Shown here piece after piece: positions 6,676-57,577 of a DNA stretch of 64,000 bases. Under the pieces are notes generated by a model, which did no database searches, had not been told where the DNA came from, and was given only the letters and a program-made list of their open reading frames with translations. The position numbers and the translations under genes are program-made. The stretch's first letter is position 1, and every line of letters begins with the position of its first letter. The stretch is from Petrosia ficiformis (lineage: Eukaryota > Porifera > Demospongiae > Haplosclerida > Petrosiidae): NCBI GenBank assembly GCA_947044365.1, contig OX345639.1, positions 1-64,000 on the forward strand. Direction: 5' to 3'.

Positions 6676-6929
6676 GATAATCCACTGTCACCAGATGGGA
6701 CAGGGATCATGTTTCCTGTTTGGAAACAAATTGAAAGCGTGAAACAGGTATGCACAATACCGTGCTTCTATAAGCATATGACCAGTATGAATTGGTCTGG
6801 GAGATAATCCACTGTCACCAGATGGGACAGGGATCATGTTTCCTGTTTGGAAACAAATTGAAAGCGTGAAACAGGTATGCACAATACCGTGCTTCTATAA
6901 GCATATGACCAGTATGAATTGGTCTGGGA
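6676..6929. repeat. 127-bp direct duplication, two units
   Basis: The segment beginning GATAATCCACTGTCACC occurs at 6676 and again at 6803, with the two units essentially identical through GAATTGGTCTGGGAG. It lies just past the stop codon of the minus-strand SET-like gene, in its likely 3' untranslated region. Confidence 0.9.
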
Positions 6930-6935
6930 GTGAAT

Positions 6936-9889
6936 TCATGTACATTGCACAGGGCAGACACTTGGACACATATGAACAAGTTGTTCTACCTGAGCATCAC
7001 TATAAGCGTGTTTAAGCTCCAAATGACCACTACGTTTATTAGTGGCAACAATGAATCTCACAAGCTGAGACAATTCGTCTCTACTCTCCAGATCCATTGA
7101 AGCACTGTCTTTCCCTGATATATAATTCATCCAGTAATTATGCAGACCATAGTTAACAAAAAGCTCTTTTGCAGTGTTGTTAGTGTTACAATGGACTCTG
7201 CCCTTCACATTTATCACAACTGTGTTTCCCTTCTGTGAATAAATAACATTGCAAAAACTTTCAGCAACTTTCTCAGCAGAATCGAGCTGAAAATGTCCCA
7301 GGGCAAAGTCAGTTGCTAACTGTTTAAGCCCTTCAAGTAAACCACCTTGATTAACAAACCGACCCAAATTCCACCCATGAAACACACTTGCATCTACAAA
7401 CATTGAGTCACGTACATCTAGTATGTAATCTGGATTGGAAATATTTTGAATCTGCTCTTCTGTCAGGGTCTCTCTGCTGTACAAGCAGAGAGTATCCCTA
7501 GCTCTGAAGTACATTTCAGTACTATGTGGTCTTAAGAAAAGACCACATCCTGCATTAGGAATGGTACTTTCAGCCACAAACACCATGGACTGGTGAATGT
7601 TGGCTTTAGATCTAGTCACATGCAACTGCTGGCTATTATGACAGACAATCAGTTGTTTCTGATTAAAATCCAAATGTAAACTACGAAGTTTCCATGGCAT
7701 ACAGTCAGCAAATCTACATTTTGTAGCATGATTTGCTTTTAGGCATTGGGTAAACTTACACATTTCTATTTGTTTCTTGTCATTTAAAGGCTCATCAGTA
7801 AACTCGAGGAGGTGTTTTGGAATGGCATACAAGCCTTTCCCGTTTTTTTCTGCAAACACCTCAGCAACTTTGTACTCACTTGGTGCTTCCTTGCGTCCTT
7901 CTTCTGTCAAGAAGGACACACCATTTCTGATAACCTGCAAGGCTAAAGGCTCCCACAGATCATTCTCTCTTTGGACAATGATTGTAACAATGAGACGACC
8001 GTCAGGTAGATGAATGCTTTTGTCGTCCACTACATGTACGTACACCTTTTTAGCTGAGTGGAGTGTAGCCATTGCACTCCAGTGTCCTACGCTGCCGAGG
8101 TCATGACTAATTGGGTGCCTACATGAAGGATGCTCTGACACCACAAATTTATGGGATATTTCAACAGCATCGTGAAATGCTTCACGAAATGGAATCCATG
8201 TTTCAGAAACACCATTTGTGAAATGCACTGCACTGCCATATTGGCTATACTTTTGCAGATCTGCAAATTTGTCTGTCACAATAAACCCTGAGTCCCCGTC
8301 CACAAAATGGATGGCACTGAGAGCATCATTTCCACCGTTTATTACAAAGTCCATATCACGACACAGGTACATTCGGTCACTCTGTGTCCCAAGCCTGCAC
8401 AGATCTACCAGATCTTTTACAATGACACTAGCTGGAATACCACAAACACCTTTGGCAAGCTTGGTGGTGGGAGGACACAATCGAGCAAATAATAGACATT
8501 CATGAAGCGAAGACTTGCTAGTGTTCTTGTACTTCATTGATGCCGCACACATGGCTACATTACCAGACTGGCATGTCTCTTCGGTGTGGTACCGAAGTAC
8601 ACCAGTTTGTTCCCATCTACGCTTCAGCGTGGGACAGAGTTGACAGTCAGGTGTTATACACCCGCCCAGTGAACTCAGTACATCTGTTTTCCTGCGTTTC
8701 ATGCAGTGTCCTGCCAGCTTATCGAGAATGCTAACGTCACCCTCTGCAATACTTACTACAGTTGTTGGCTTACTGCACAACTGTAATAAATTGGGGTCTG
8801 TAGGGTGTGGTTGATATGATTCTCCGTATTTAGCCCTGTTGATAAAACTGTGTAGATGTGCAGACTTGTTTATCAACTCATTCATGACTCTACCTATGCC
8901 ATAGTAACATTGTACGTCACACTGATTTTTTAGCATAGAATACCGAACCACTTTGGATGAAGCAGCATTGTATAGCTTATCCAATTCTTCCCTAACAGCA
9001 GTGACGTTTGTCGGGTTAGTCACAGCTGGAAGGTCGTGTTTAATTCCAACAGCTCCTGGAATATCAGAGTTTTCAGAAGCACATTCTGTCACCCTTATCA
9101 AAAGATGTCCCTTTTTTTCTGGACATTCGGGTTTCCATGTAGATGGAATGGTGACATTCTTAATTGCACAAATGTCACTGTCAACAGACCTAGTGGTACG
9201 TGTAGACTGTCCACCAGCATTTGAAATGGCATCACTTCTCATTCTACGACGCTTTGGCCGATTAGAATGCCCACTAGAACCCTCTTCCCCATCATCACGT
9301 GCTCTCCTACGACTAGTCGTAGGTAATGCTGAGTTAGACAATGCAGACCTAGAATTTGATGGTACAGGCACAGAGCTAGGCATTGACTTTCTCACGGAAG
9401 AGGGTATGATGCTGGTGGAGCTACTTGTACCAGTTCTACTTCCATTGCTAGTGTTAGGCTCACCTCTTAATACTTGTACACTAGCAGACAAATTTTCTAC
9501 AAGATGACACATGAATTCATGGTCAACCGGTAGAGTACTCGATAATTCCAGAATCTTTATTAATAATGGAAATATTTGAGAAGCATTTCGTTGTGGATAT
9601 TCTGGGGTAAAGAATGAATAACAAATGAAAACTGAATGATGAATTGTGACATGAGATATACAATTTTACTTAGCTACAATAATTATCTATAATTTTCACT
9701 CTGTATTATGAGAAACTGTTATATATATATATATAATTATACATGTTGCAGTGGTAATGATTGTCAGGTGCTAAAATAGTAATTAATGCATCTTATACAA
9801 AACTCTATATTATAGTATACATGTATGTATATAATTAGTAGCTAGAAAAGGTATTCCATAATATATATAATTATATATATATATAATTA

Positions 9890-9928
<39 letters not shown>

Positions 9929-10333
9929 TATATACTACAGAAATGCATCACTGTTGGTACTACACAAATAGAGTACTCCATAATTATATATATATATATA
10001 TGTATATACTTTTTATATGCAATTACATTATATATATATATATATATACACATATGAACTAGTAACTATTGAAGCATTTATCATACACATTTACATGTAC
10101 CTTCAATGACACGCTTGAAGCTCTCCATGCTCGTATCCATGTCATAGAAAAATTTACACCACGTTTAATTGAAATGCTGGGCCTAGATTTAACACATCAC
10201 GTGAGCTCTATGCTAAAAGTTGCTTCATCCAGAAGTTGAATCTGAGTAGTCTGTAGGGGAAACCCTACAATAGCACTAGCTTCAGTGAAATTTAGACCCA
10301 GTGTAAATGGAGAGAACCAGCGTCGCGGGTTGT
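6936..10333 (-). pseudogene. Large protein with divergent SET-like domain; 5' exon carries an in-frame TGA
   Basis: The main open frame runs from 9512 to 6936 (858 codons). Its N-terminus is Ser/Thr-rich with a basic nuclear-localisation-like run (RPKRRRMR, about residues 85-92). Residues 647-794 look like a SET domain: PNAGCGLF as the first glycine motif, then YILDVRDS...LGRFVNQG, then KELFVNYG...YW. The usual NHS is replaced by NQG, so catalysis is doubtful. Residues 430-500 form a conserved-looking block I cannot name. The frame is open upstream of 9512, and a separate exon-like block at 10333-10101 (acceptor GATTCAG, donor AAG|GTACAT) reads as protein in one frame except for a TGA at 10199-10197. 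It can join in phase 0 to an acceptor near 9554. If that exon belongs, the gene is broken; if not, the 858-codon frame may be intact. It lies downstream of the recombinase gene on the same strand, which suggests a shared mobile element. Confidence 0.55.
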
Positions 10334-10475
10334 CTGAATCGTTGTAAGTAATAATGAGGTATGTGATAATTATAATAATTATATATATATATATATATAT
10401 AATATAATTATATAATTATATATAATATATATATACAATAATTACGATAATAAAATAATCGTTATAGTGATGACA

Positions 10476-10519
<44 letters not shown>

Positions 10520-10530
10520 TATATATATAT

Positions 10531-10580
<50 letters not shown>

Positions 10581-10730
10581 ATATATAATTATTAAATATA
10601 TATATTTATTATAATTAATTAATTGTCAATAATTATTATGATCATAGTTATAATAATGATATGAAAACCAAGATTAAAATAATTATTTAGCATTAATATA
10701 TATATATATATATATATATGTTACATTTAA
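9700..10730. repeat. (TA)n microsatellite clusters
   Basis: Runs of alternating TA occupy about 9720-9735, 9860-9945, 9980-10050, 10380-10440, 10480-10600 and 10695-10720, between the two minus-strand genes. Apart from the exon-like block at 10101-10333 I see nothing else here. Confidence 0.9.
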
Positions 10731-10737
10731 TGCAGGT

Positions 10738-13218
10738 TCACTGGAGTGTTTGTATTTGGGTGATATCGTCAAGAGGAGTCCTGAGTTCATATGCCCTGTG
10801 CTCACGTGAGTACACCAAGTCAATACCTGTAATCAAACAAGAGAGTTTTTCTTCCCACCTGTTTGAAGCGATCTTGAGACGATAGTATCCGGGAAATGTC
10901 TCCACTAATTCGTTTAATAGTGCCGTTTTTGTTGTGGCATTTATCTCAAGGACTTTTGCAAAAATTAACTTTGGACATCTCTCAGTTGAATCGTTGGCAA
11001 TCATGGCAACACTTTCTCCGGGAACGACGACATTTGAGCTTGTTGGATCATCTGAGTCCTCGTCACTGATATCCTCTAAGCTTTTGCACATTTTCTTTGG
11101 TGATGTTACATCTATGGCTGGCGGTGGACGACGTAGTGCTTGCAGGACTTGTTTTGAAGCAAAGTGGACACCTGGTTTCACTCTTTCGTTGATGGTCCTC
11201 TTGTCGTAGATGTCCTGCTGATATCTTCTAGAGTGTCGCATTGCCACGGCAATACTTTCCATCACTGCTTCCGTCGATTCGTTGCCGGCAAATGTGACAA
11301 ACGACGACCGCAATGCATGTATTGATACTCCACCAACTCCCGTGTACTTGTAGAATATTGATTGAATGTATTTAGTCCAATTCTTGGAATTATAGCATCC
11401 ACCGTCATCATCCTAGAGAGAGAAAGAGAGAGAGAGAGAGAAACAAGGCGAGTGTCACTCACGACAAATCAGACAAATAGTTGACAGTCACACATGTACA
11501 TGTACGTGCGTGGAACTCACCAGAAAGAGAATGGTTGATTTCGAACTGTTTGGTATCTTGTTGCGATAGCGTAAGAGGTAGTCTGACAGGACGTTCATGA
11601 AGTAGCTGTCATCAGGACAAGAGATCATTTGTGGTCCAGTTGAATGTCCTGTCTTGTGATCGGTAATGTACATTATGGCCTTCCCCTCGTAAGGTGAAAA
11701 GTGCAAAATGTTTTTGTGCAATCTGCTTTCGTAAGGTCCCGTTATTTCACTCTCGTGAATCTTGAAGTGCAATTCTCTGTATTCCCTTCCACGTCCCGGA
11801 GGAATGGCCGTGTACACTAACACAACAAGAAGTGATCGGGAAAGTTTGATCCTCTCCCAATCAGTGGACGAGTTGTAGTCATCGTTCAACTGTGCGAGGA
11901 CCTCCAAGACTTCCTTCCTACACGAAAACAGAATGGCTGTATAACAACACATGTATCTGAATTGCCCCATCAGAAGTCTGATTGTCAGACTAAAAAAAAA
12001 AACAACAAACAAATACTTACCACGATAGCCAACGTCCTTTGGCTTTTAGTTCCTCCCAGGACTTATCTCTGTTGAGCTCTGCCTCCTTTTGGAAGACACT
12101 GATGTACCTGTGGAGATTTTGTAACTGTGTTGTTTTCTCTTCTTTGTCGGCATATTTTACTGCACGTACGAGTGCCTGACAGTAACAACACAGTGTTCCC
12201 GGAGTGGAGTTTTTTTCCTCTCTCATGAATAGCAGGAATTTGTCTAGCAAGGCTTTGTCCAGAACGAGGCCAAATTGTAACGTTTCCTCCGTTCTTTTGC
12301 AGTACTCAAAAAAATCTTTGGAAAGGAATAGAGAAAGAAGGATATTAATGTGGGGGTTATACAACAGGCTTCTAAAATTCTAAAAAAAATGCTAAAAAAA
12401 ATTCAAAGCTCACAGAGTATCTGTTCTTTGGTTTTGTTTAACGTTATACTACTCAGAGGCTTTCCTTTCCTCTCGTGATTGAAAGGAGCTGCATAGAAAG
12501 TGTCCAGTCCTTCGATCTTTTTCATGAGGTCCTCGGGCAATGGAGGAGTACCCTTGCGGCCTCTCGTGCTGCCTTTTGTAGATGCTTGTTTAGTTGAAGT
12601 TTCTACATCAGAAATCCAAGGCACTACTTCCATATCATTAATTGCAGTGTGACTTCCGTCGTCTTCGCTGATCACAATGTGTGGTCCTGGTGGATGTTTT
12701 TGAATGGGAGACGAATGTGTGACGGTCTCTGAGTCCGAAATGACTTCAACTGCAAGGCTTTGGTCTTCCCGGAGTGAATTGCCCTCGGATACGATGTCTG
12801 CCTGCTCAATATCAGTACCAGTTGTGTCCATGTTTTCTGTTGTGTGATCAGGAGCAGTGTGGAGGGGTTCTTTCGTTACATTTTGTTGCAAGCTGTCAAC
12901 AGATACCCCTCTGCTTTTGAGAATGGCTTCAATGTATCTTTCTGCACTGTTTTTGTCCATCAGTATGCACCTGTTAGTGCTTGACGATATGATCTTTTCT
13001 TTTCTCAGAATTGAAATTTCTGCTGGCAGTGCTAGGCATGTGACAATGCCCATCTTCATTCTCCTGCGACTCAAGGTACTGTTGTCATATAGTTCCAGCA
13101 ACTTGAACCTTTTGATCAGCTCTCCACAAGGTATGAGGTGTATGTCGTCTCTCCTTATGCCTTGGAAAATCTGTTTGTGGACTACAACATCGACGGGTTC
13201 ATCTGGTAAGTCAGACAT
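10738..13218 (-). CDS. Four-exon tyrosine recombinase (Crypton-like), 723 aa
   Basis: Exons on the minus strand are 13218-12414, 12315-12021, 11917-11521 and 11412-10738. Donors are GTGAGC, GTAAGT and GTGAGT; phases are 1, 2 and 0 and the frame is continuous to TGA. The C-terminal half has the full tyrosine recombinase set: Arg in PPGRGREYREL (about 409-411), Lys in DHKTGHSTGP (about 455), HALR (His531, Arg534), and RHSRRYQQDIYDKR with a late His (about 559) and Tyr568 as likely nucleophile (Tyr563 is the alternative). The first 250 residues are acidic and of unknown fold. The family breaks and rejoins DNA through a 3'-phosphotyrosine; Cryptons and DIRS-like elements use it for integration. 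I chose the ATG at 13218 because an in-frame ATG at 13374 lies inside a 66-bp duplicated segment. No SET domain is fused here, but a SET-like gene lies immediately downstream on the same strand. Confidence 0.8.
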
Positions 13219-13315
13219 TATCACACACACAGTATTCTTCACATTTTTTTCTCTCTCACTCTGCTCTGTCCTTCCCCTGTATTTATGTTGAACTGTTCTG
13301 ACCTCATGCTTTCTT

Positions 13316-13445
13316 AGAACCCATGAGTCATGTACCTGCACTTTTTGATGTTGACAAGATGGATGCGATGTCATTGCACTTTAGAACCCACCAGTCATAT
13401 CATGCACTTTTTGATGTTGTCAAGAAGGATGCGATGTCATTCAAA
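13316..13445. repeat. 66-bp direct duplication upstream of the recombinase gene
   Basis: Two diverged copies of a segment containing CACTTTTTGATGTTG and GGATGCGATGTCATT lie side by side just upstream of the likely start of the minus-strand recombinase. They may be part of its promoter or 5' untranslated region. Confidence 0.75.
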
Positions 13446-13579
13446 TTTTTATTTTCTCAAGTTTTCAGGCAGGAATACAACTATTAGTTTTGGGTGAGCT
13501 TTTCCATTCAGTTAACTGTCACTGTCACAGAATGTTTTTGTGTGTGTGAAGACCATTTTTTTGCGTGAAGATGTTATGT

Positions 13580-13598
13580 CCCTAAACCCTAAACCCTA
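13580..13598. repeat. Telomere-like CCCTAAA tract, left flank of the 8.2-kb element
   Basis: About 2.6 units of CCCTAAA end at CTA (13596-13598), after which the 8.2-kb element begins with TATACCTGAGAA. A longer tract of the same repeat lies on the far side of the tandem pair at 30032-30140, so the pair interrupts a telomere-like array. Confidence 0.9.
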
Positions 13599-14339
13599 TA
13601 TACCTGAGAAGCAAAATTTCCCCAAATCCAGGTCTCAACGGATTCGTAATCTACGTCACGTGAGCATTAATTTGAATGCCTAAACTTTGCACTGACCCGC
13701 CCATTTCCGGTGTTAACCGTACCTCATTTAACTTCAAATAACTCAAAAAATAAAAGGTTTTAAAACTTCTAGTCACTGCCAATCTCTAGAAGAAAAATAG
13801 ACCTTTCTCAGTTCCAAAAATCAAGTCAATAGACCTTTAGATGTTGGAGTTATTAAGCTTCAAACATAAAGTATATGGAAATTTTTTTATAAGTTCAAGT
13901 TTGTCGATTAATATCTCCGCTTGTGAAGATGCTATAAACATGCAACTAACACTGAATGAAAGCCCAATCTTTTATCTCACTGAACCCCAAATACCCTATT
14001 AATCCGCGCAAAGACCGCGGAATAGGGGCAGTTTGAATAAGGTACACTTTAAGACTAAACACTTTAAATTAGTTCAAAACCCATTGATAAATATACCGTT
14101 AGAAAGCTCTTTTTATGCTCATTTCAAAAATGCTTTTACTTTTTCAAACCAGTACTTACTTTTTGAGTTATTGTTGTTTTAATTTCGTCATTTTTCGGAA
14201 ATTATTTTTTGCCTTATACAGGAAAGGTATTTTGTATGGCTTCATGAGTTGGGGAATACACTACACTAGACATGTACATTCCAAACCCCAAGTACCCTAG
14301 TGAAACCCTGGCCTAAACTGTAGAACTAAAAAAAATTCA

Positions 14340-16400
14340 AAATATGTCCCTTTTATGTCCCTCGATAGAAAATTTGTGCCCTGGACACTTTTTTGGCAAT
14401 TTCAGGGCTTGAAATTTCACCTGTACATTTGTCCACCTTCCCTCATTTCCCTGGTATATCTGGTTGATTTCCCCCAAAGGGACATATGTCCCTCAAATTT
14501 CAAATATGCTTGCCGCAAATTTAGTAATGGCGTTGTGCTACTCCATTTCCACTAACCACACCCTGATAGTGCAATCTTCTCTACCTACTTTCATTCCTGA
14601 ACCCTGAAATATGTCCCTAAAATATGTCCCTGTTTGGGGTTTCCCATTAAGGAAAGGTCCAACAAGCCTGGTATTTTAATGTGTTGCTTGTCTCCTCCTA
14701 TTCTTTAATTTTCATTGAAAAACAATTTTTCATATTTTTGAACTTTGGGGTTTCCATACTTCCCATTGACCCTGGAAGAAAATCTTCTTACAATGTATTC
14801 TACCCCCAATACCAACTCCACCCACAAAATTTGGGGAAAATCCCTAACAGGGACATATGTCCCTTCAGAAATATTTTGCCCTGAACCCTTTACAAGCTTC
14901 CAAACTTTCTATACATTTTTGTAATGAAACTCTAGTGGGAGTACATTCCATTGCACTGCTTATTGTAAAATCCCCCAAAGGGACATATGTCCCTCAATTT
15001 TCATAATGATCTGCGTTTAAATTTACAGTGTAGTTGTGCTACTCCATCTCTACTAACCACACCCTGATAGTTTAATCTTCCCTTCCTTCCTCCATTCTGG
15101 AACCCTGGAATATGTCCCTAAAATATGTCCCTGTTTGGGGTTCTTCGTTAAGGAAAGCTCCAACAAGCCTGGTATTTTAATATGTTGCTTGTCTCCTCCT
15201 ACTCTTCAATTTTCATTGAAAAAAAAATTTTCATATTTTTGAATTTGGGGTATTCCTATTTTCCATTGACCCTGGAAGAAAATATTCACACCTTTTAATC
15301 TACTCCTAATACCAACTGCACCTACCAAATTTGGAGAAAATCCCTAACAGGGACATATGTCCCTTCAGAAAAATTTGCCCTGAACCCTTTACAAGCTTCG
15401 AAACTTTCTATACATTTTTGTGGTGAAACTCTAGTGGGAGTACATTCCATTGCACTACTTATTGTAAAATCCCCCAAAGGGACATATGTCCCTCAATTTT
15501 CATAATGATCTGCGTTTAAATTTACAGTGTGGTTGTGCTACTCCATCTCTACTAACCACACCCTGATAGTTTAATTTTCCCTTCCTTCCTCCATTCTGGA
15601 ACCCTGGAATATGTCCCTAAAATATGTCCCTGTTTGGGGTACTTCGTTAAGGAAAGCTCCAACAAGCCTGGTATTTTAATATGTTGCTTGTCTCCTCCTA
15701 CTCTTCAATTTTCATTGAAAAAAAAATTTTCATATTTTTGAATTTTGGGGTATTCCTATTTTCCATTGACCCTGGAAGAAAATATTCACACCTTTTAATC
15801 TACTCCTAATACCAACTGCACCTACCAAATTTGGAGAAAATCCCTAACAGGGACATATGTCCCTTCAGAAATATTTTGCCCTGAACCCTTTACAAGCTTC
15901 CAAACTTTCTATACATTTTTGTGGTGAAACTCTAGTGGGAGTACATTCCATTGCACTACTTATTGTAAAATCCCCCAAAGGGACATATGTCCCTCAATTT
16001 TCATAATGATCTGCGTTTAAATTTACAGTGTGGTTGTGCTACTCCATCTCTACTAACCACACCCTGATAGTTTAATCTTCCCTTCCTTCCTCCATTCTGG
16101 AACCCTGGAATATGTCCCTAAAATATGTCCCTGTTTGGGGTACTTCGTTAAGGAAAGCTCCAACAAGCCTGGTATTTTAATATGTTGCTTGTCTCCTCCT
16201 ACTCTTCAATTTTCATTGAAAAAAAAATTTTCATATTTTTGAATTTTGGGGTATTCCTATTTTCCATTGACCCTGGAAGAAAATATTCACACCTTTTAAT
16301 CTACTCCTAATACCAACTGCACCTACCAAATTTGGAGAAAATCCCTAAGGGGGACATATGTCCCTGCAATATAAATGTGCCCTGCACAACTTACAAGCTT
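14340..16400. repeat. 500-bp tandem repeat with GGGACATATGTCCC palindromes (copy 1)
   Basis: Exact or near-exact palindromes lie at about 14479, 14850, 14980, 15350, 15479, 15850, 15980 and 16351, that is two per unit of about 500 bp over four units. They sit in the constant contexts CCCCCAAAGGGACAT and CCTAACAGGGACAT. Short frames inside are too small and too repetitive to be genes. The stretch is the leader of the element and a candidate array of binding sites. Confidence 0.92.
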
Positions 16401-16889
16401 CAGAGCTCTCTATAATTTTCTGTGGTGAAACCCCAGGGAGAGTACATTCCGTCCCACCATAAACCCTAAATAGGGACATAATTTATATGTCCCTCCCCCA
16501 AACAAATTAAGTTTGGGAAACCATACCCATACACAACAGGTAGGAATTTCATCCTACAAGTGATGCACTATATAGGGCATTTTCATACTACTACAATAAT
16601 GAAAGGGACATATTTCAGGGACATAATTTTAAAAATATAACTTCGAAAATTTGTATAGCTTCAATTGTTCTATAGGAGTTAACCCTGAAAGGATGTCTCC
16701 TCAGTACAATAATAGAAACATTCTGAAACTTTTTCATTTCTGAAAGGGACATAGGGACATATATGTCCCTTCACATAATGAATGATGCAATGGAGTTCAT
16801 CGGGGATGAGAATTCCAATAGTGTTGTCCTGCCATAGTAAAAAGTACCATTCTTGAGAAATCACATATGTCCCACAAGAAAATTAAAGT

Positions 16890-17480
16890 ATGCATACTTC
16901 AGATGTGATTACATTCAATTACATCAAATTGCATTCAATTACATTCAATGATTTGGTACAATTGAAGACCTTCAATTACTTTCAATTATTACATTCAAAT
17001 ACAGCCAAATTACATTGCATCACACTTAAAATGCAAATTACACTGAATTAAATTAAATTACTTCACTGAATTCAAAATCCATTGGGATACCTTCAATTTC
17101 CTCTGTTTAGCTTCTAATTATATTCAGTTCTCTTCAAATTACATTCAAACACTTTCAATTGTTAAGAATTGGCTAATTTGATTGAAGTATCATGTAACTG
17201 TAACTGCTTGCAATCAATTACCATCAAATACCTTTAATTTAGGTTCAATTATTTTCTAATTCTACTTAGTCAAAATTACTTGAATTCACTTTTTTGAATT
17301 ACAATGAAATACTTTTTGCATTCCCTTATTTTCAAATTCCGTTGAATTACCCTAATTTGCATTCACTACTTTGCAATTGCATCAAATTATTTTAAATTAC
17401 ATGAAATACCATTTATTGCATTCTAATTTTATTCCAATACCTTCACTTCCTTTATTTGATTTTAGCCTCCATTTAAATGC
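16890..17480. repeat. ATTACATTCAATTAC-rich low-complexity tract (copy 1)
   Basis: Degenerate short repeats of ATTACATTCAATTAC and relatives lie between the palindrome array and the gene. A similar tract lies in the same relative position ahead of the diverged gene C (55185-55720), so it is a conserved part of the element layout. Confidence 0.8.
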
Positions 17481-17892
17481 CACACCTTCAAAATATTTCT
17501 TTGGATTTCTATCAAGTTTGCTGAAGTTTTCAACTTCTGAACTACAATTAACTGGTAATTGTACTATTATATGTACATTATTCTTTAATATTTAAACTAA
17601 ACACCATTTTCTGTAATTATATAGTATTACTAATTGACTAATTGTAAGGTAGCCATTTTTACAAAGGTCTGTTTTATAGTAAAGTGAGCTATAAAATAAA
17701 GAGTACTTGAGTCTTTGTTTTGATAATTGGTCAGTGGAATAACTACTTAACTTGTCACAAGTGGACAGAGTTGTGAAACAAAATGGCGTAATTTAAAAAG
17801 TTCATACTACTTGTATTAACAAGTTATTTTAATGTAAAATAATGAAATTTAGTTCACTTCATATCTCACAATAGAGTAATCCAGAGTTCATC

Positions 17893-20825
17893 ATGTCCAA
17901 AAGGAGACTCTTGGACAGTGATTCCGACATTGAAGACTTTGTTTTGAAGAAAACAAAATCTTCACTTTCCTGCGAGAAATATAGTGTTGGAGGTTTACCT
18001 GAGTTTTTGAATCTAGAAAGTAAGTATTTTTAACAAATTAATTTATTTTATTTGATTGTTAGATTCAAGTGACAAGAAGTCAACATCTGAAGAATACAGT
18101 AATTCAGGCTGTACAGAAGAAACATCTCTTCATTTAGAATGTAAGTGTTGTCAATACAATTTAGTTTGAGTTTATGTACCTGTTAGGTTCAAGTGATGAT
18201 GAGTCAGTACAAGATATTACAGATGAAGGTAAAATGACATATGCTTTAAGGTTAATTTATGTTACTTGTACAAGTAGGTTCGATTCAAGACATTTCAGAG
18301 AGTGTGGAAGATTGTAAGATTGATATAGACTTTTAAGCAAATATGAACTCATTTTCTTCAGTTTCCAGTGAAGAAGAAGGAAAGACATCACTGAGGAAGT
18401 CAACAAGAATATGGTTAGTTACTTTTTTAGTAACACAAACTCTAGAATGCATTAATATAGGAAACACCAAACTATAAAAGAAAAGGTCATTGATGGTCTC
18501 ACAAGAGACCTCAATGCACCAATAGAAGTTAGAGATACGGGGACAAGTAAAGGGAGAGGCATATTTGCCTTAAAACCTATACCATCGCACACATTTCTAT
18601 GCGAATATAAAACAACTGGGGTATATAATCAATTACAATATGACAAAAGATTGAAAGAATATGAAAAAAACAATGAAACCTCTGGAAGCATTTCCTTCAA
18701 AGTTGGGAGAAAGACCTTATTTTATGATGCCACCAGACGTTACAATCAGTATGGTTTGTACATGAACCATAGTCGTAATCCAAATGCAAGAATCTACAGT
18801 CCCATCACCATCCGAGGTAAATCTAGACTTGGAATGTACTCAATTCAGGATGTACAAGAAGATGAAGAATTAGAATGGGATTATGGCATAACAACAAGTG
18901 AAATGCCATGGTTACAATCAAAAGGTAAATCTCTGCATTTATGATATATTGTACTATCAAACTAATAAAGTAGGTGAAGCAGACACTGAAGTAGACATTG
19001 AAGAGAAAGAGGATGAGGAAGATACTATACAGCAGTTAGGTAGGTTATAGTTAATTATGTTACATTCAATTAACCTTTCATGGATGGTTTGTTCTTGAGC
19101 TATCACAATAGCCATGGTGTTACAGTCTATCATTGATGTGGTCCGGGTTGGCATATTTTTGTTCTTAAATTTAAGCCATTTTCCTGCATAGTTTTGCACT
19201 CTGGTCTCTGAAAGAGTTAAATTATCAATCCGTACTTTAGGTAACTTTGAAAAATATAGAAAATACTATCACTGTCCTGTAGAAGGATGTAAAGCACAAG
19301 CCTTGAAAAAACTATCGAATCATCTAACATCTGTTCATTCAATAACTGATACTACAACCCGAAAAGAGCTATTAGCAAAAGCAAAGAAAGCAGGAGTTGC
19401 AAAGAGAGGTGAAATGAAAAGAAATCCGTTGCAACTAACCATCCAGCAAAGCTTCCAAATTAGTCAACATGTCGATAAAAATATTGTGGTGCCCACGGCT
19501 CAAAAAAAAAAGGGGTCAACCCGCAGTTATGAGTTTTATGACATCGACAATACAAAAGAACTGGCAGCATTCTACAAAAATCTGACTAGCTTCGACGGAG
19601 GCAGCAAATCCTCCGTTGAAGCTAGACAGATTTGCACAGATGTGTCGAAATATTTGGCATTTGCCGACTCGACACAGTTAAAATGGGACAATCTTCTCGA
19701 CACGGATCGTCTCAAGCAGTATGTGGAGAAGCTCCAGAAAACTGCCATAGGACCTGATGGCCTTGTCACAAAATTGGACAGGGTACAAACTGCTCTCAGA
19801 TACTTAATGAGAGATGTTCCCAAGTACAAAACCAGTGATGCTGCGATGAAAACAATCGAGAGAGTAGGTCTTTGGAAAGCAGGTTTCCGAACTGCAAAAA
19901 TCACACACACAAGGGATAAGGCAGCACGTGAAGTCGACACAACCGATGATGATATGCAGGCTTTGAAAGAGTTGATACATTCAAAGATTGCAAAAACTAA
20001 AGTAGAGACCATAGTAAACAGAGGAAAGTCCTCAGATGAGGACATAAATTTTATCGCAACATATTTATTTATCTGCTTTGGATACAAAAATTTCCAAAGA
20101 GCAGGTCCAGCTATAAACATGACTCTTAAAGAAGTGGCAGAAGCCACATATGTTGGGGAAGATGAAGATACAATGCTAAAAATTATAGTTAGCAATCACA
20201 AGACTGCTAAAACATACGGTCCAGCTGTTTTATATTTATCTCTTGATGATTCTGCAATTTTCAATCACTACATCGAGGAAATACGACCAAACATTGCTAC
20301 ATCAGCAGAGTGTGACATTGCCCTTCTTAGGGCAAATGGCCTATCCTTTAGAAACAACTATTCACACATTATAAGAGCATACGCTATTGAAGTTGGATTA
20401 ACAAGAATTCCATCCTTGACAGCTGTTCGAAAAGCTGGAGCTGTAACAGGAAGAGCAGTGCTATCAAACCCTGAAATGGAGGCAATGTCTCGACAGATGT
20501 CCCACAGTTCTGCAACATCAGAATTATATTATCGTGTTCGGAAAGGAGGGAAACAATCTCTGAGTGCATTTAAATCGATGCAAATGCTAACAGGTAAGTG
20601 AGATGTGTACACATAATAAAAAATTACACATTCTTTGACACAGAGCAATCCACTCCACTTCCAAGTGGTTATTTAGAAGCCATTGAAGTATTTTTTAAAG
20701 ACGAGTTGTCAAAGAAATCTACGCCTACTTTGGCTAAATGTCGCACCTTTCTTAACAACTACACCTGTGACAAAACAACAAAACAGGTACAAGACAAAGT
20801 CCGTGCATTAAATACGTCTAAATAA
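17893..20825 (+). CDS. SET domain + C2H2 finger + tyrosine recombinase protein (799 aa), copy 1
   Basis: Nine exons: 17893-18019, 18063-18140, 18187-18228, 18278-18313, 18362-18413, 18461-18924, 18974-19039, 19241-20593, 20644-20825. All phases agree, giving 799 codons. Residues 1-111 are acidic and Ser-rich, spread over five tiny exons. Residues 113-267 are a SET domain closest in style to KMT5A: KGRGIFA (142-148), DATRRYNQYG, NHS (214-216, AdoMet binding) and WDYG (251-254). A C2H2 finger follows (C300, C305, H316, H321). The recombinase core has Arg575 in QRAGPAINMTL, Lys609 in NHKTAKTYGPA, Arg685 in TAVRK (the usual preceding His is Thr), His710 in QMSHSSATSELYY and Tyr718 or 719. The C-terminal tail (TPTLAKCRTFL...KQVQDKV) is also conserved in gene C. 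Expected roles are lysine methylation plus DNA strand exchange; joint function is inference. Confidence 0.87.
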
Positions 20826-21494
20826 GTAATCTTTAAGTATTCTTTTCATTACTATCATGAGTCATTCCACTCATTTAGTTATATATTATTAACATAATGT
20901 ATCACTTCATTTCTATCATTTATCCATTTAGTTATATATTACTTAGTTATATACTATTAACATAATGTACCCCTTTATTTATTTATTTTAGTTCTTTTCA
21001 TTTACCCATTTCAGTATATAATTATTCACTAATCATTTATGCTATCAATATACCATGGGTAAATATCATGATTTCATTACTATCAGTGTTATATCAAAAA
21101 GTATGTTTATTTCTTGTTATTTAAAAAATAGAATTAATAACATTGTAAAGGAGTAGTAGTGCATTAATCATACATGGATTATGTAATGAAAAAACTATGA
21201 CAGTGAATACAAACTATATGAAAGTCTAACTTAATCCAAAACAATACTCACCTTTCAACAATATATTAATAATCAAGTAATCAGCCAAAACTAACTTAGT
21301 AAGTACTTGAAACATCACAGTTAATAAATGAATTGTAGTCCTGAACAAAAAAAGGGGGACATACTTATTAGTAACTTCCAAATTACTAGGGAGACTTAAA
21401 ATTGCCAAATACTTGGTGACCAATAAATGCCTTCTAACCTACTTTAATAGGCAAGCGAGATGAGCATACATGGAGAAAAGTTACATTAAAACAG
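20826..21494. other. 3' region of the element, AT-rich (copy 1)
   Basis: This follows the stop codon and contains repeated TTAGTTATATATTA blocks and AATAAA signals at 21323-21328 and 21422-21427 that could end the transcript. I see no other gene. Confidence 0.5.
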
Positions 21495-21610
21495 AGCAAT
21501 CCACTGCCCCACCAAGCGGTTCTATACAGCCAATTAAAAAGTTTATGATAAAAAAGGCAACCATAAACAACACACAAAACATAAAAGATTATATTAATAA
21601 GTTGATTTAA
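21495..21610 (+). CDS. Extra terminal exon, duplicate of exon 9 start (copy 1)
   Basis: An AAAACAG acceptor is followed by AGCAATCCACTGCC, matching the start of exon 9 (AGCAATCCACTCCA at 20644) and the PSG codons after it. From the exon 8 phase the frame stays open for 39 codons to TAA. It would replace the conserved C-terminal tail by a short Lys/Ile/Asn-rich end. It may be an alternative 3' exon or a decaying duplicate. Confidence 0.45.
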
Positions 21611-21667
21611 CCACACGGTTATAAATTTAGTAAACGCTAAAGGACATACATTATATTATTACTTTTA

Positions 21668-21813
21668 GGGACATGTTACATGGTTTATCACAACACAAGG
21701 GACATAACGGTATGTCCCTCGAATTTTCAGTATGTCCCTGCATTTTCAGGCAAAAGGACATAATATGTCCCCGAAATGGGCCAAGGGACATGGATAGGGA
21801 CATATTCTCAGGG
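21668..21813. promoter_or_regulatory. Subterminal cluster of GGGACAT half-sites, right end (copy 1)
   Basis: About eight GGGACAT/ATGTCCC half-sites in both orientations (near 21668, 21699, 21712, 21732, 21755, 21765, 21785 and 21797) precede the terminal TTCTCAGGG. The 4.0-kb element at 34047-34153 has the same layout, and the reverse terminus at 63160 has a variant. Subterminal clusters of this kind usually bind the mobilising protein. Confidence 0.65.
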
Positions 21814-21816
21814 CTA
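21814..21816. other. CTA core at the junction between tandem copies
   Basis: The junction reads CTCAGGG-CTA-TATACC. It keeps one CTA and no other telomere-like sequence. Left flank CC-CTA-TATACC and right flank CAGGG-CTA-AACCC show the same CTA, so all three junctions can be explained by crossover within CTA. Confidence 0.8.
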
Positions 21817-22557
21817 TATACCTGAGAAGCAAAATTTCCCCAAATCCAGGTCTCAACGGATTCGTAATCTACGTCACGTGAGCATTAATTTGAATGCCTA
21901 AACTTTGCACTGACCCGCCCATTTCCGGTGTTAACCGTACCTCATTTAACTTCAAATAACTCAAAAAATAAAAGGTTTTAAAACTTCTAGTCACTGCCAA
22001 TCTCTAGAAGAAAAATAGACCTTTCTCAGTTCCAAAAATCAAGTCAATAGACCTTTAGATGTTGGAGTTATTAAGCTTCAAACATAAAGTATATGGAAAT
22101 TTTTTTATAAGTTCAAGTTTGTCGATTAATATCTCCGCTTGTGAAGATGCTATAAACATGCAACTAACACTGAATGAAAGCCCAATCTTTTATCTCACTG
22201 AACCCCAAATACCCTATTAATCCGCGCAAAGACCGCGGAATAGGGGCAGTTTGAATAAGGTACACTTTAAGACTAAACACTTTAAATTAGTTCAAAACCC
22301 ATTGATAAATATACCGTTAGAAAGCTCTTTTTATGCTCATTTCAAAAATGCTTTTACTTTTTCAAACCAGTACTTACTTTTTGAGTTATTGTTGTTTTAA
22401 TTTCGTCATTTTTCGGAAATTATTTTTTGCCTTATACAGGAAAGGTATTTTGTATGGCTTCATGAGTTGGGGAATACACTACACTAGACATGTACATTCC
22501 AAACCCCAAGTACCCTAGTGAAACCCTGGCCTAAACTGTAGAACTAAAAAAAATTCA

Positions 22558-24618
22558 AAATATGTCCCTTTTATGTCCCTCGATAGAAAATTTGTGCCCT
22601 GGACACTTTTTTGGCAATTTCAGGGCTTGAAATTTCACCTGTACATTTGTCCACCTTCCCTCATTTCCCTGGTATATCTGGTTGATTTCCCCCAAAGGGA
22701 CATATGTCCCTCAAATTTCAAATATGCTTGCCGCAAATTTAGTAATGGCGTTGTGCTACTCCATTTCCACTAACCACACCCTGATAGTGCAATCTTCTCT
22801 ACCTACTTTCATTCCTGAACCCTGAAATATGTCCCTAAAATATGTCCCTGTTTGGGGTTTCCCATTAAGGAAAGGTCCAACAAGCCTGGTATTTTAATGT
22901 GTTGCTTGTCTCCTCCTATTCTTTAATTTTCATTGAAAAACAATTTTTCATATTTTTGAACTTTGGGGTTTCCATACTTCCCATTGACCCTGGAAGAAAA
23001 TCTTCTTACAATGTATTCTACCCCCAATACCAACTCCACCCACAAAATTTGGGGAAAATCCCTAACAGGGACATATGTCCCTTCAGAAATATTTTGCCCT
23101 GAACCCTTTACAAGCTTCCAAACTTTCTATACATTTTTGTAATGAAACTCTAGTGGGAGTACATTCCATTGCACTGCTTATTGTAAAATCCCCCAAAGGG
23201 ACATATGTCCCTCAATTTTCATAATGATCTGCGTTTAAATTTACAGTGTAGTTGTGCTACTCCATCTCTACTAACCACACCCTGATAGTTTAATCTTCCC
23301 TTCCTTCCTCCATTCTGGAACCCTGGAATATGTCCCTAAAATATGTCCCTGTTTGGGGTTCTTCGTTAAGGAAAGCTCCAACAAGCCTGGTATTTTAATA
23401 TGTTGCTTGTCTCCTCCTACTCTTCAATTTTCATTGAAAAAAAAATTTTCATATTTTTGAATTTGGGGTATTCCTATTTTCCATTGACCCTGGAAGAAAA
23501 TATTCACACCTTTTAATCTACTCCTAATACCAACTGCACCTACCAAATTTGGAGAAAATCCCTAACAGGGACATATGTCCCTTCAGAAAAATTTGCCCTG
23601 AACCCTTTACAAGCTTCGAAACTTTCTATACATTTTTGTGGTGAAACTCTAGTGGGAGTACATTCCATTGCACTACTTATTGTAAAATCCCCCAAAGGGA
23701 CATATGTCCCTCAATTTTCATAATGATCTGCGTTTAAATTTACAGTGTGGTTGTGCTACTCCATCTCTACTAACCACACCCTGATAGTTTAATTTTCCCT
23801 TCCTTCCTCCATTCTGGAACCCTGGAATATGTCCCTAAAATATGTCCCTGTTTGGGGTACTTCGTTAAGGAAAGCTCCAACAAGCCTGGTATTTTAATAT
23901 GTTGCTTGTCTCCTCCTACTCTTCAATTTTCATTGAAAAAAAAATTTTCATATTTTTGAATTTTGGGGTATTCCTATTTTCCATTGACCCTGGAAGAAAA
24001 TATTCACACCTTTTAATCTACTCCTAATACCAACTGCACCTACCAAATTTGGAGAAAATCCCTAACAGGGACATATGTCCCTTCAGAAATATTTTGCCCT
24101 GAACCCTTTACAAGCTTCCAAACTTTCTATACATTTTTGTGGTGAAACTCTAGTGGGAGTACATTCCATTGCACTACTTATTGTAAAATCCCCCAAAGGG
24201 ACATATGTCCCTCAATTTTCATAATGATCTGCGTTTAAATTTACAGTGTGGTTGTGCTACTCCATCTCTACTAACCACACCCTGATAGTTTAATCTTCCC
24301 TTCCTTCCTCCATTCTGGAACCCTGGAATATGTCCCTAAAATATGTCCCTGTTTGGGGTACTTCGTTAAGGAAAGCTCCAACAAGCCTGGTATTTTAATA
24401 TGTTGCTTGTCTCCTCCTACTCTTCAATTTTCATTGAAAAAAAAATTTTCATATTTTTGAATTTTGGGGTATTCCTATTTTCCATTGACCCTGGAAGAAA
24501 ATATTCACACCTTTTAATCTACTCCTAATACCAACTGCACCTACCAAATTTGGAGAAAATCCCTAAGGGGGACATATGTCCCTGCAATATAAATGTGCCC
24601 TGCACAACTTACAAGCTT
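22558..24618. repeat. 500-bp tandem repeat with GGGACATATGTCCC palindromes (copy 2)
   Basis: This is the copy 2 equivalent of 14340-16400, with palindromes 8218 bp downstream of each copy 1 palindrome. Confidence 0.92.
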
Positions 24619-25107
24619 CAGAGCTCTCTATAATTTTCTGTGGTGAAACCCCAGGGAGAGTACATTCCGTCCCACCATAAACCCTAAATAGGGACATAAT
24701 TTATATGTCCCTCCCCCAAACAAATTAAGTTTGGGAAACCATACCCATACACAACAGGTAGGAATTTCATCCTACAAGTGATGCACTATATAGGGCATTT
24801 TCATACTACTACAATAATGAAAGGGACATATTTCAGGGACATAATTTTAAAAATATAACTTCGAAAATTTGTATAGCTTCAATTGTTCTATAGGAGTTAA
24901 CCCTGAAAGGATGTCTCCTCAGTACAATAATAGAAACATTCTGAAACTTTTTCATTTCTGAAAGGGACATAGGGACATATATGTCCCTTCACATAATGAA
25001 TGATGCAATGGAGTTCATCGGGGATGAGAATTCCAATAGTGTTGTCCTGCCATAGTAAAAAGTACCATTCTTGAGAAATCACATATGTCCCACAAGAAAA
25101 TTAAAGT

Positions 25108-25698
25108 ATGCATACTTCAGATGTGATTACATTCAATTACATCAAATTGCATTCAATTACATTCAATGATTTGGTACAATTGAAGACCTTCAATTACTTT
25201 CAATTATTACATTCAAATACAGCCAAATTACATTGCATCACACTTAAAATGCAAATTACACTGAATTAAATTAAATTACTTCACTGAATTCAAAATCCAT
25301 TGGGATACCTTCAATTTCCTCTGTTTAGCTTCTAATTATATTCAGTTCTCTTCAAATTACATTCAAACACTTTCAATTGTTAAGAATTGGCTAATTTGAT
25401 TGAAGTATCATGTAACTGTAACTGCTTGCAATCAATTACCATCAAATACCTTTAATTTAGGTTCAATTATTTTCTAATTCTACTTAGTCAAAATTACTTG
25501 AATTCACTTTTTTGAATTACAATGAAATACTTTTTGCATTCCCTTATTTTCAAATTCCGTTGAATTACCCTAATTTGCATTCACTACTTTGCAATTGCAT
25601 CAAATTATTTTAAATTACATGAAATACCATTTATTGCATTCTAATTTTATTCCAATACCTTCACTTCCTTTATTTGATTTTAGCCTCCATTTAAATGC
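25108..25698. repeat. ATTACATTCAATTAC-rich tract (copy 2)
   Basis: This is the copy 2 equivalent of 16890-17480, again between the palindrome array and the gene. Confidence 0.8.
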
Positions 25699-26110
25699 CA
25701 CACCTTCAAAATATTTCTTTGGATTTCTATCAAGTTTGCTGAAGTTTTCAACTTCTGAACTACAATTAACTGGTAATTGTACTATTATATGTACATTATT
25801 CTTTAATATTTAAACTAAACACCATTTTCTGTAATTATATAGTATTACTAATTGACTAATTGTAAGGTAGCCATTTTTACAAAGGTCTGTTTTATAGTAA
25901 AGTGAGCTATAAAATAAAGAGTACTTGAGTCTTTGTTTTGATAATTGGTCAGTGGAATAACTACTTAACTTGTCACAAGTGGACAGAGTTGTGAAACAAA
26001 ATGGCGTAATTTAAAAAGTTCATACTACTTGTATTAACAAGTTATTTTAATGTAAAATAATGAAATTTAGTTCACTTCATATCTCACAATAGAGTAATCC
26101 AGAGTTCATC

Positions 26111-29043
26111 ATGTCCAAAAGGAGACTCTTGGACAGTGATTCCGACATTGAAGACTTTGTTTTGAAGAAAACAAAATCTTCACTTTCCTGCGAGAAATAT
26201 AGTGTTGGAGGTTTACCTGAGTTTTTGAATCTAGAAAGTAAGTATTTTTAACAAATTAATTTATTTTATTTGATTGTTAGATTCAAGTGACAAGAAGTCA
26301 ACATCTGAAGAATACAGTAATTCAGGCTGTACAGAAGAAACATCTCTTCATTTAGAATGTAAGTGTTGTCAATACAATTTAGTTTGAGTTTATGTACCTG
26401 TTAGGTTCAAGTGATGATGAGTCAGTACAAGATATTACAGATGAAGGTAAAATGACATATGCTTTAAGGTTAATTTATGTTACTTGTACAAGTAGGTTCG
26501 ATTCAAGACATTTCAGAGAGTGTGGAAGATTGTAAGATTGATATAGACTTTTAAGCAAATATGAACTCATTTTCTTCAGTTTCCAGTGAAGAAGAAGGAA
26601 AGACATCACTGAGGAAGTCAACAAGAATATGGTTAGTTACTTTTTTAGTAACACAAACTCTAGAATGCATTAATATAGGAAACACCAAACTATAAAAGAA
26701 AAGGTCATTGATGGTCTCACAAGAGACCTCAATGCACCAATAGAAGTTAGAGATACGGGGACAAGTAAAGGGAGAGGCATATTTGCCTTAAAACCTATAC
26801 CATCGCACACATTTCTATGCGAATATAAAACAACTGGGGTATATAATCAATTACAATATGACAAAAGATTGAAAGAATATGAAAAAAACAATGAAACCTC
26901 TGGAAGCATTTCCTTCAAAGTTGGGAGAAAGACCTTATTTTATGATGCCACCAGACGTTACAATCAGTATGGTTTGTACATGAACCATAGTCGTAATCCA
27001 AATGCAAGAATCTACAGTCCCATCACCATCCGAGGTAAATCTAGACTTGGAATGTACTCAATTCAGGATGTACAAGAAGATGAAGAATTAGAATGGGATT
27101 ATGGCATAACAACAAGTGAAATGCCATGGTTACAATCAAAAGGTAAATCTCTGCATTTATGATATATTGTACTATCAAACTAATAAAGTAGGTGAAGCAG
27201 ACACTGAAGTAGACATTGAAGAGAAAGAGGATGAGGAAGATACTATACAGCAGTTAGGTAGGTTATAGTTAATTATGTTACATTCAATTAACCTTTCATG
27301 GATGGTTTGTTCTTGAGCTATCACAATAGCCATGGTGTTACAGTCTATCATTGATGTGGTCCGGGTTGGCATATTTTTGTTCTTAAATTTAAGCCATTTT
27401 CCTGCATAGTTTTGCACTCTGGTCTCTGAAAGAGTTAAATTATCAATCCGTACTTTAGGTAACTTTGAAAAATATAGAAAATACTATCACTGTCCTGTAG
27501 AAGGATGTAAAGCACAAGCCTTGAAAAAACTATCGAATCATCTAACATCTGTTCATTCAATAACTGATACTACAACCCGAAAAGAGCTATTAGCAAAAGC
27601 AAAGAAAGCAGGAGTTGCAAAGAGAGGTGAAATGAAAAGAAATCCGTTGCAACTAACCATCCAGCAAAGCTTCCAAATTAGTCAACATGTCGATAAAAAT
27701 ATTGTGGTGCCCACGGCTCAAAAAAAAAAGGGGTCAACCCGCAGTTATGAGTTTTATGACATCGACAATACAAAAGAACTGGCAGCATTCTACAAAAATC
27801 TGACTAGCTTCGACGGAGGCAGCAAATCCTCCGTTGAAGCTAGACAGATTTGCACAGATGTGTCGAAATATTTGGCATTTGCCGACTCGACACAGTTAAA
27901 ATGGGACAATCTTCTCGACACGGATCGTCTCAAGCAGTATGTGGAGAAGCTCCAGAAAACTGCCATAGGACCTGATGGCCTTGTCACAAAATTGGACAGG
28001 GTACAAACTGCTCTCAGATACTTAATGAGAGATGTTCCCAAGTACAAAACCAGTGATGCTGCGATGAAAACAATCGAGAGAGTAGGTCTTTGGAAAGCAG
28101 GTTTCCGAACTGCAAAAATCACACACACAAGGGATAAGGCAGCACGTGAAGTCGACACAACCGATGATGATATGCAGGCTTTGAAAGAGTTGATACATTC
28201 AAAGATTGCAAAAACTAAAGTAGAGACCATAGTAAACAGAGGAAAGTCCTCAGATGAGGACATAAATTTTATCGCAACATATTTATTTATCTGCTTTGGA
28301 TACAAAAATTTCCAAAGAGCAGGTCCAGCTATAAACATGACTCTTAAAGAAGTGGCAGAAGCCACATATGTTGGGGAAGATGAAGATACAATGCTAAAAA
28401 TTATAGTTAGCAATCACAAGACTGCTAAAACATACGGTCCAGCTGTTTTATATTTATCTCTTGATGATTCTGCAATTTTCAATCACTACATCGAGGAAAT
28501 ACGACCAAACATTGCTACATCAGCAGAGTGTGACATTGCCCTTCTTAGGGCAAATGGCCTATCCTTTAGAAACAACTATTCACACATTATAAGAGCATAC
28601 GCTATTGAAGTTGGATTAACAAGAATTCCATCCTTGACAGCTGTTCGAAAAGCTGGAGCTGTAACAGGAAGAGCAGTGCTATCAAACCCTGAAATGGAGG
28701 CAATGTCTCGACAGATGTCCCACAGTTCTGCAACATCAGAATTATATTATCGTGTTCGGAAAGGAGGGAAACAATCTCTGAGTGCATTTAAATCGATGCA
28801 AATGCTAACAGGTAAGTGAGATGTGTACACATAATAAAAAATTACACATTCTTTGACACAGAGCAATCCACTCCACTTCCAAGTGGTTATTTAGAAGCCA
28901 TTGAAGTATTTTTTAAAGACGAGTTGTCAAAGAAATCTACGCCTACTTTGGCTAAATGTCGCACCTTTCTTAACAACTACACCTGTGACAAAACAACAAA
29001 ACAGGTACAAGACAAAGTCCGTGCATTAAATACGTCTAAATAA
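26111..29043 (+). CDS. SET domain + C2H2 finger + tyrosine recombinase protein (799 aa), copy 2
   Basis: Exons: 26111-26237, 26281-26358, 26405-26446, 26496-26531, 26580-26631, 26679-27142, 27192-27257, 27459-28811, 28862-29043. The protein is the same as copy 1: acidic N-terminus, KMT5A-like SET with NHS, C-x4-C-x10-H-x4-H finger, and recombinase Arg/Lys/Arg/His/Tyr. Both copies have open frames and intact splice sites, so this element may still be active. The region before the first exon (about 25.9-26.1 kb) has no clear TATA box. Confidence 0.87.
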
Positions 29044-29712
29044 GTAATCTTTAAGTATTCTTTTCATTACTATCATGAGTCATTCCACTCATTTAGTTAT
29101 ATATTATTAACATAATGTATCACTTCATTTCTATCATTTATCCATTTAGTTATATATTACTTAGTTATATACTATTAACATAATGTACCCCTTTATTTAT
29201 TTATTTTAGTTCTTTTCATTTACCCATTTCAGTATATAATTATTCACTAATCATTTATGCTATCAATATACCATGGGTAAATATCATGATTTCATTACTA
29301 TCAGTGTTATATCAAAAAGTATGTTTATTTCTTGTTATTTAAAAAATAGAATTAATAACATTGTAAAGGAGTAGTAGTGCATTAATCATACATGGATTAT
29401 GTAATGAAAAAACTATGACAGTGAATACAAACTATATGAAAGTCTAACTTAATCCAAAACAATACTCACCTTTCAACAATATATTAATAATCAAGTAATC
29501 AGCCAAAACTAACTTAGTAAGTACTTGAAACATCACAGTTAATAAATGAATTGTAGTCCTGAACAAAAAAAGGGGGACATACTTATTAGTAACTTCCAAA
29601 TTACTAGGGAGACTTAAAATTGCCAAATACTTGGTGACCAATAAATGCCTTCTAACCTACTTTAATAGGCAAGCGAGATGAGCATACATGGAGAAAAGTT
29701 ACATTAAAACAG

Positions 29713-29828
29713 AGCAATCCACTGCCCCACCAAGCGGTTCTATACAGCCAATTAAAAAGTTTATGATAAAAAAGGCAACCATAAACAACACACAAAACAT
29801 AAAAGATTATATTAATAAGTTGATTTAA
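29713..29828 (+). CDS. Extra terminal exon, duplicate of exon 9 start (copy 2)
   Basis: Identical to 21495-21610 in copy 1. It is preceded by an acceptor and is in frame with exon 8 to a TAA. Confidence 0.45.
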
Positions 29829-29885
29829 CCACACGGTTATAAATTTAGTAAACGCTAAAGGACATACATTATATTATTACTTTTA

Positions 29886-30031
29886 GGGACATGTTACATG
29901 GTTTATCACAACACAAGGGACATAACGGTATGTCCCTCGAATTTTCAGTATGTCCCTGCATTTTCAGGCAAAAGGACATAATATGTCCCCGAAATGGGCC
30001 AAGGGACATGGATAGGGACATATTCTCAGGG
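29886..30031. promoter_or_regulatory. Subterminal cluster of GGGACAT half-sites, right end (copy 2)
   Basis: Same cluster as in copy 1, ending in TTCTCAGGG directly against the CCCTAAA tract. Confidence 0.65.
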
Positions 30032-30140
30032 CTAAACCCTAAACCCTAAACCCTAAAACACTAAACCCTAAACCCTAAACCCTAAACCCTAAACCCTAAA
30101 CCCTAAACCCTAAACCCTAAACCCTAAACCCTAAACCCTA
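30032..30140. repeat. Telomere-like CCCTAAA tract (about 15 units)
   Basis: Nearly perfect CCCTAAA heptamers with one imperfect unit (AAACACTAAA near 30055) separate the 8.2-kb pair from the 4.0-kb element. The left edge is GGG-CTA-AACCC and the right edge is ACC-CTA-TAGACC, both breaking at CTA. The heptamer is the TTTAGGG type known from plants and several protists, not the usual animal TTAGGG. Confidence 0.95.

Positions 30141-57535: not shown

Positions 57536-57577
<42 letters not shown>

Follow-up and report, generated by a model that had tools for sequence, protein, structure and literature searches.

Telomere-associated tyrosine recombinases that insert into (TAACC/GGTTA)n have been described in crustacean nimaviruses; these enzymes have a C2H2 zinc-binding domain, sequencing reads suggest concatemers or episomes, and they are reported not to be closely related to Cryptons (Kawato et al. 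2023, PMC10871703). Cryptons are small recombinase-encoding DNA elements for which movement as a circle has been proposed, and they are described as lacking terminal inverted repeats, their ends being marked by short direct repeats of 4–6 bp (Kojima and Jurka 2011, PMC3212892); CryptonV families are reported to be inserted in microsatellites (PMC8869645). A fusion of a SET domain to a transposon-derived DNA enzyme is described for SETMAR, a primate host gene in which the transposase is reported to be inactive.

Here, we analysed a stretch of 64 kb of DNA (the window), which represents the first 64 kb of contig C4 in a genome assembled as 29 contigs (191,215,263 bases). The window contains a gene on the forward strand (17893-20825) with nine exons and GT-AG introns, the spliced model of which gives a single open frame of 799 aa. 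Exons 1–5 (17893-18019, 18063-18140, 18187-18228, 18278-18313, and 18362-18413) are followed by exon 6 (18461-18924), which encodes a SET domain with the motifs KGRGIFA, NHS, and WDYG, and exon 7 (18974-19039), the translation of which is an acidic linker from the SET domain to a finger. Exon 8 (19241-20593) encodes this finger, which we assigned by eye as C2H2-like (CPVEGC...HLTSVH), together with a recombinase core in which the catalytic residues are R in QR, K in HKT, R in RKAG, H in SHSS, and Y in YYR. Exon 9 (20644-20825) encodes a C-terminal module that ends in KQVQDKVR and is similar in the proteins P0002, P0014, and P0019. By function and description, the nimavirus recombinases appear to be the nearest described enzymes, sharing with this locus insertion into a telomere repeat and a C2H2-like finger (by eye in our case) next to a recombinase, but they reside in large viral genomes (278–401 kb for complete majaniviruses, compared to 8.2 kb for the element described below), their target repeat is different, and the term "SET domain" is absent from the main text of PMC10871703. 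By analogy, Cryptons appear to offer the nearest mechanism, yet the element described here lacks DUF3504, has T where the HxxR box usually begins with H, targets the telomere, and has a fused SET domain. SETMAR appears to be the nearest fusion but is described as a host gene, whereas the SET-recombinase fusion reported here belongs to a multicopy element.

The gene is contained in a unit of 8,218 bp, referred to as element A, which an earlier reading of the window had missed, along with the second gene, the telomere-type repeats at the unit ends, and the copies near contig ends. Copy 1 (13596-21813, forward strand) begins at a CTA that is common to the element and the telomere repeat, and copy 2 (21814-30031, forward strand) is its exact tandem repeat with 100% identity across 8.2 kb; accordingly, the second copy has a gene at 26111-29043 (forward strand) with a spliced sequence identical to that of the first. 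Both outer ends of the pair adjoin (CCCTAAA)n, which is the telomere-type repeat of this genome, with a short stretch at the distal (left) end (13580-13595) and an array that extends from element A to the next element (30032-30140), both on the forward strand. Within each copy are four tandem repeats of ~501 bp with palindromes of the sequence GGGACATATGTCCC (14470-16450, forward strand, and again 22688-24668). Contig C10 ends in TTTAGGG repeats, with 250 copies in the last 3 kb, and 71 copies lie beyond an N gap at the left end of contig C15; long telomere arrays were present at only two of the 15 contig ends examined.

In the genome, the recombinase of element A is present in near-identical form in at least 26 places, one of them partial, and matches to the SET domain at 99–100% likewise number at least 26. 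All 26 copies found lie no more than 85 kb from contig ends, with 15 at left ends in "+" orientation, 11 at right ends in "-" orientation, and none contrary to this rule. We located junctions by searching the genome for the element ends themselves, and the counts omit missing ends on C12 (left end unlocated), C13 (off the contig), and C3 (partial copy). All telomeric junctions located in this way are in one register, around the CTA: the left junctions consist of CCCTAAACC joined to CTATATACC in 16 of 16, and the 17 right junctions of TTCTCAGGG joined to CTAAACCC in 15 and CTAGACCC in two. One left end (L059, on C14) has a single base that is different within the arm.

Two further families are related to element A. 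Element B (about 4 kb; 30138-34162, forward strand), which has ends of the form GTCAGG-CCTATAGA-CCTGAC, is likely a non-autonomous relative; no SET-recombinase match was found in it when the protein was compared with the window DNA. Its left end occurs in seven places, all seven near contig ends and in "+" orientation on the left and "-" on the right (with lengths checked for the contigs other than C2). The second family, on C16, has an intact element of 7,082 bp, in which the SET domain is 65% and the recombinase 53% identical to those of element A, and which is inserted in the same telomere repeat in the same register but has weaker arms.

We considered that the copies of element A might represent a subtelomeric repeat that is spread mainly by exchange or gene conversion between chromosome ends, with a recombinase that no longer mobilises it. 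Consistent with this idea, copies are at least 99.9% identical to the window copy (with 24 variable positions among 25 copies over 4,071 bp), private variants are common to the tandem partners on C1, C4, C7, and C14 and to three of the four copies on C5, and many copies have as common distal neighbour a different telomere-end element, element D. The combination of a common distal neighbour and common private variants suggests that some copies may owe their spread to exchange between chromosome ends, while the variants shared by partners on C1, C4, C7, and C14 also fit local duplication or the insertion of dimers. As a general explanation, however, exchange fits poorly with the finding that all boundaries located fall on the same base of the repeat, that proximal flanks vary (CTAAAC versus CTAGAC, with unequal repeat lengths) as do distal neighbours (element D, element B, element A, or a long telomere array), that the tandem partners C5a/C5b and C6r1/C6r2 do not have private variants in common, and that a second family, on C16, occupies the same site. 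We therefore regard this explanation as unlikely. Among recent copies of element A, 12 of 15 coding differences alter an amino acid.

The junction between the two tandem copies (21805-21828) reads TTCTCAGG-GCTATATA-CCTGAGAA, with inverted arms of 8 bp and a spacer of 8 bp, and we propose that it corresponds to the core recombination site. The genome has eight such tandem junctions on several chromosomes, all of this sequence, and inverted arms of at least 8 bp arose by chance in only 28 of 20,000 random pairings (0.14%). The spacer is 8 bp in all three families, while the arms are 8 bp in element A, 6 bp in element B (for which arms of at least 6 bp were obtained in 1.9% of random pairings), and 3 bp perfect in the C16 family. 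Sites of tyrosine recombinases are described as two inverted repeats of 11–13 bp with 6–8 bp between them (PMC3212892); the element A junction fits this layout of inverted arms around a 6–8 bp spacer, but the arms of 8, 6, and 3 bp are shorter than the repeats given in that source. In the window, we counted 33 occurrences of the palindrome GGGACATATGTCCC, all of them in 2-kb bins in which elements A and B lie; the genome-wide count is 347, compared to two for the reversed control. Moreover, GGGACATAT, which is part of this motif, precedes the right core in all three families. Based on this distribution, GGGACATATGTCCC is a probable candidate for a binding site of the finger and/or the recombinase.

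The catalytic residues R, K, R, H, and Y are present in order in an alignment of 13 rows, which we read by eye counting only the rows that hold each segment (R in 11/11, K in 11/11, R in 9/9, H in 9/9, and Y in 8/9); the usual H of the HxxR box is replaced by T in eight of nine rows and by S in one. A profile search supported only one of the two domains named in the first-pass annotation: the SET domain was recognised (see below), while no Pfam recombinase match was obtained for the 799-aa window protein, and a relative, P0024, which was recovered at 2.6e-17 by a profile of this family, matched PF00589 at 5.1e-5 with 23.5 bits, i.e. below the curated cut-off of 27.1. Similarly, sequence searches of the PDB with the recombinase, as a single sequence or as a profile, gave no match. 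The predicted fold of exon 8 (six sequences; mean pLDDT 68.7, pTM 0.43) was more informative. Its first 17 PDB matches are XerA/Xer, Cre/Tre, and integrase chains (E 6.9e-5 to 0.029, probability 0.97–1.00), and the first other protein follows at E 0.33 with a probability of 0.08. The best matches have low TM-scores (0.22–0.30 by query length), as expected because the exon 8 model is of moderate quality. Based on the alignment and this predicted fold, we regard the core encoded by exon 8 as a tyrosine recombinase.

We also considered the possibility that the element is a classical DUF3504 Crypton that by chance carries, or adjoins, a SET gene. Such an origin would be in line with a DNA element that has a recombinase as its only mobility enzyme and ends that share a short identity. 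In addition, six Cryptons from the same genome, combined in a profile, matched the recombinase weakly with the catalytic boxes in register (probability 3%, E 0.014). DUF3504 (PF12012), which is the mark of described animal Cryptons, is nevertheless absent from the 799-aa protein at E values up to 1, none of the element A places is among the listed DUF3504 matches of the genome (150 of 438 candidates scored), and P0002, described below, is a true fusion. Membership among the Cryptons, which the first-pass annotation had named, was not supported, and we consider this origin improbable. As a separate observation, at least 151 DUF3504 matches are dispersed through the genome, with strong matches among them and many in long open frames, and judging from these matches the genome is rich in classical DUF3504 Cryptons.

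To what extent is the fusion of the SET domain and the recombinase real? In the window, an intron of 201 bp separates the two, as would be the case if the gene model were an artefact joining separate genes that are transcribed apart. Three lines of evidence argue against this. First, the database protein P0002 (720 aa), which is 29% identical to the window protein over 85%, contains SET, finger, and recombinase in one uninterrupted frame, demonstrating that the fusion is not an artefact of the splicing model, and the order is the same in P0003, which runs from the SET domain through the finger into the first part of the recombinase. Second, the boundary before NFExYRK recurs in P0013, P0014, and P0018, in which the open frames diverge (by eye) just upstream. 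Third, SET and recombinase are tightly paired along the contigs: of the 42 clusters of SET matches, 37 are followed by a recombinase match on the same strand less than 1 kb downstream, and 14 of 51 recombinase clusters are without a SET match, 12 of these being on C1. The artefact explanation is therefore very improbable. A diverged and broken copy in the window (57009-61053, forward strand) has the same gene order, with a SET domain that is 58% and a recombinase that is 39% identical, and its recombinase frame is split near 60440 with a fragment that scores 0.018 against PF00589. Thus, the nine-exon frame joining a SET domain, a C2H2-like finger, and a recombinase, and its recurrence in this second gene, both held up as first annotated, the latter with the proviso of the split frame. 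P0001, in which an unrelated N-terminal part precedes the recombinase, derives from an apparently chimaeric contig and was excluded from this evidence. We conclude from these sequences that the SET/finger/recombinase fusion is real, conserved, and old. In line with the first-pass annotation, no described element family with a SET-recombinase fusion turned up among the papers listed in literature searches, a weak absence given that mostly non-subscription papers were covered.

The SET domain (residues 143–254) matches PF00856 at 3.2e-16 with 60.1 bits compared to a cut-off of 22.4. Like KMT5A/SET8, which is a histone H4K20 methyltransferase, it keeps GRG, NH, and the final DYG; these motifs are invariant in four element sequences. 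Unlike in KMT5A, DYG is preceded by W in three of the four, and a diverged copy of the C1 family has GRR in place of GRG (one copy read). In searches of the PDB, a profile of the four SET sequences ranked KMT5A first (1.1e-16), ~60-fold ahead of SETD2 (6.9e-15), whereas the window sequence alone ranked SETD2 first (3.1e-10) and KMT5A next (7.4e-8). The label "KMT5A-like" given initially thus agrees with the ranking by profile but not with that by the single sequence, and we find it reasonable, not decisive. The SET domain is more similar between families than the recombinase, with identities of 65 versus 53% for C16 and 45 versus 29% for P0002. Across four comparisons of the SET domain, divergence is 22–27% at second codon positions and 63–73% at 4-fold sites, indicating that selection has kept the SET sequence; because dS is saturated, no dN/dS ratio is given. 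When element A is compared to C16, however, the divergence at second codon positions is 24% for both the SET domain and the recombinase and, therefore, the advantage of the SET domain in identity is absent on this measure.

Could the exact tandem repeat be an artefact of assembly? Identity of 100% over 8.2 kb would be compatible with this, but the join lies exactly at the element ends as set by the telomere flanks, eight such joins are present on several chromosomes, and the partners C5a/C5b and C6r1/C6r2 differ from each other, making an artefact highly improbable. It is equally hard to credit that element A is what remains of a large, nimavirus-like DNA virus that became endogenous, which would share the type of target and the finger-recombinase layout described in PMC10871703, given a unit of 8.2 kb with both ends intact, longest open reading frames beyond the SET/recombinase exons over 14000-24000 of 207 aa (on the strand opposite the recombinase exon) and 102 aa, and no relatives in viral_contigs (which may not include nimaviruses). 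Searches of genome_contigs and phages likewise gave no relatives.

In the assembled sequence, the ends, the common CTA, the register, the orientation, the copy number, the dimers, the fused frame, and the conservation of the SET domain are all directly visible, and we consider it highly probable that element A is a transposon that targets telomeres by means of a tyrosine recombinase and has a fused SET domain maintained by selection. In this model, element A would be a DNA transposon of ~8.2 kb, the tyrosine recombinase of which inserts it at a fixed position and in a fixed orientation in (CCCTAAA)n. The two element ends would be joined in a circle to generate TTCTCAGG-GCTATATA-CCTGAGAA, and the recombinase would bind the inverted arms and swap strands with the CTA of the telomere, with no further duplication of the target. 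Dimers could arise when a circle inserts next to a copy already in place or when a concatemer inserts, and the GGGACATATGTCCC repeats may be bound by the finger and/or the recombinase. The SET domain probably functions as a lysine methyltransferase, which the recombinase would bring to telomeric chromatin. We tentatively suggest, at somewhat less than even confidence, that its most likely substrates there are histones or the recombinase itself and that the insertion complex thereby works on, or persists in, compact telomeric chromatin. More speculatively, these elements might represent a class of telomere-resident transposons that write their own histone mark, in which a recombinase-methyltransferase conditions chromatin for insertion and persistence, and the tandem stacks of which, together with related elements, could make up a good part of the subtelomeres. 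If correct, this would be a mobile element with chromatin-writing and integration enzymes in one protein; it would also be small and non-viral, with a tyrosine recombinase that selects the telomere repeat to the precise base. Element A provides a eukaryotic recombinase of small size that is directed at telomere repeats, with a site that is defined well enough for work in the test tube, and makes it possible to ask directly how elements deal with compact telomeric chromatin.

Element D, which lies within positions 1-13578 of the window, has its coding sequences on the minus strand (10738-13380 and 6936-9665), with recombinase-like boxes recognised by eye (PPGRGREY, DHKTGH, HALR, and MRHS...Y). 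A piece of 132 aa from this element is found in 30 places at 98–100%, in "-" orientation near low and "+" orientation near high contig ends (with lengths checked for some of the contigs). A SET domain that appeared plausible by eye in the protein encoded at 6936-9665 was rejected: the probability in a profile comparison was 0.3%, 12 of 200 shuffled controls outscored the candidate in hmmsearch, and searches of Pfam and the PDB lent it no support. A 431-bp tandem repeat of 7.4 copies (2203-5407) is located distal to element A. A degenerate telomere-like satellite with a 39-mer unit (34181-34279, forward strand) is of a type present on the proximal side of many element A insertions, and the region 34500-54200 contains large tandem arrays with periods of 62, 66, 128, and 171 bp. 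Finally, beside the diverged gene is an open reading frame of 329 aa on the minus strand (61078-62067), for which no Pfam family scored above the cut-off.
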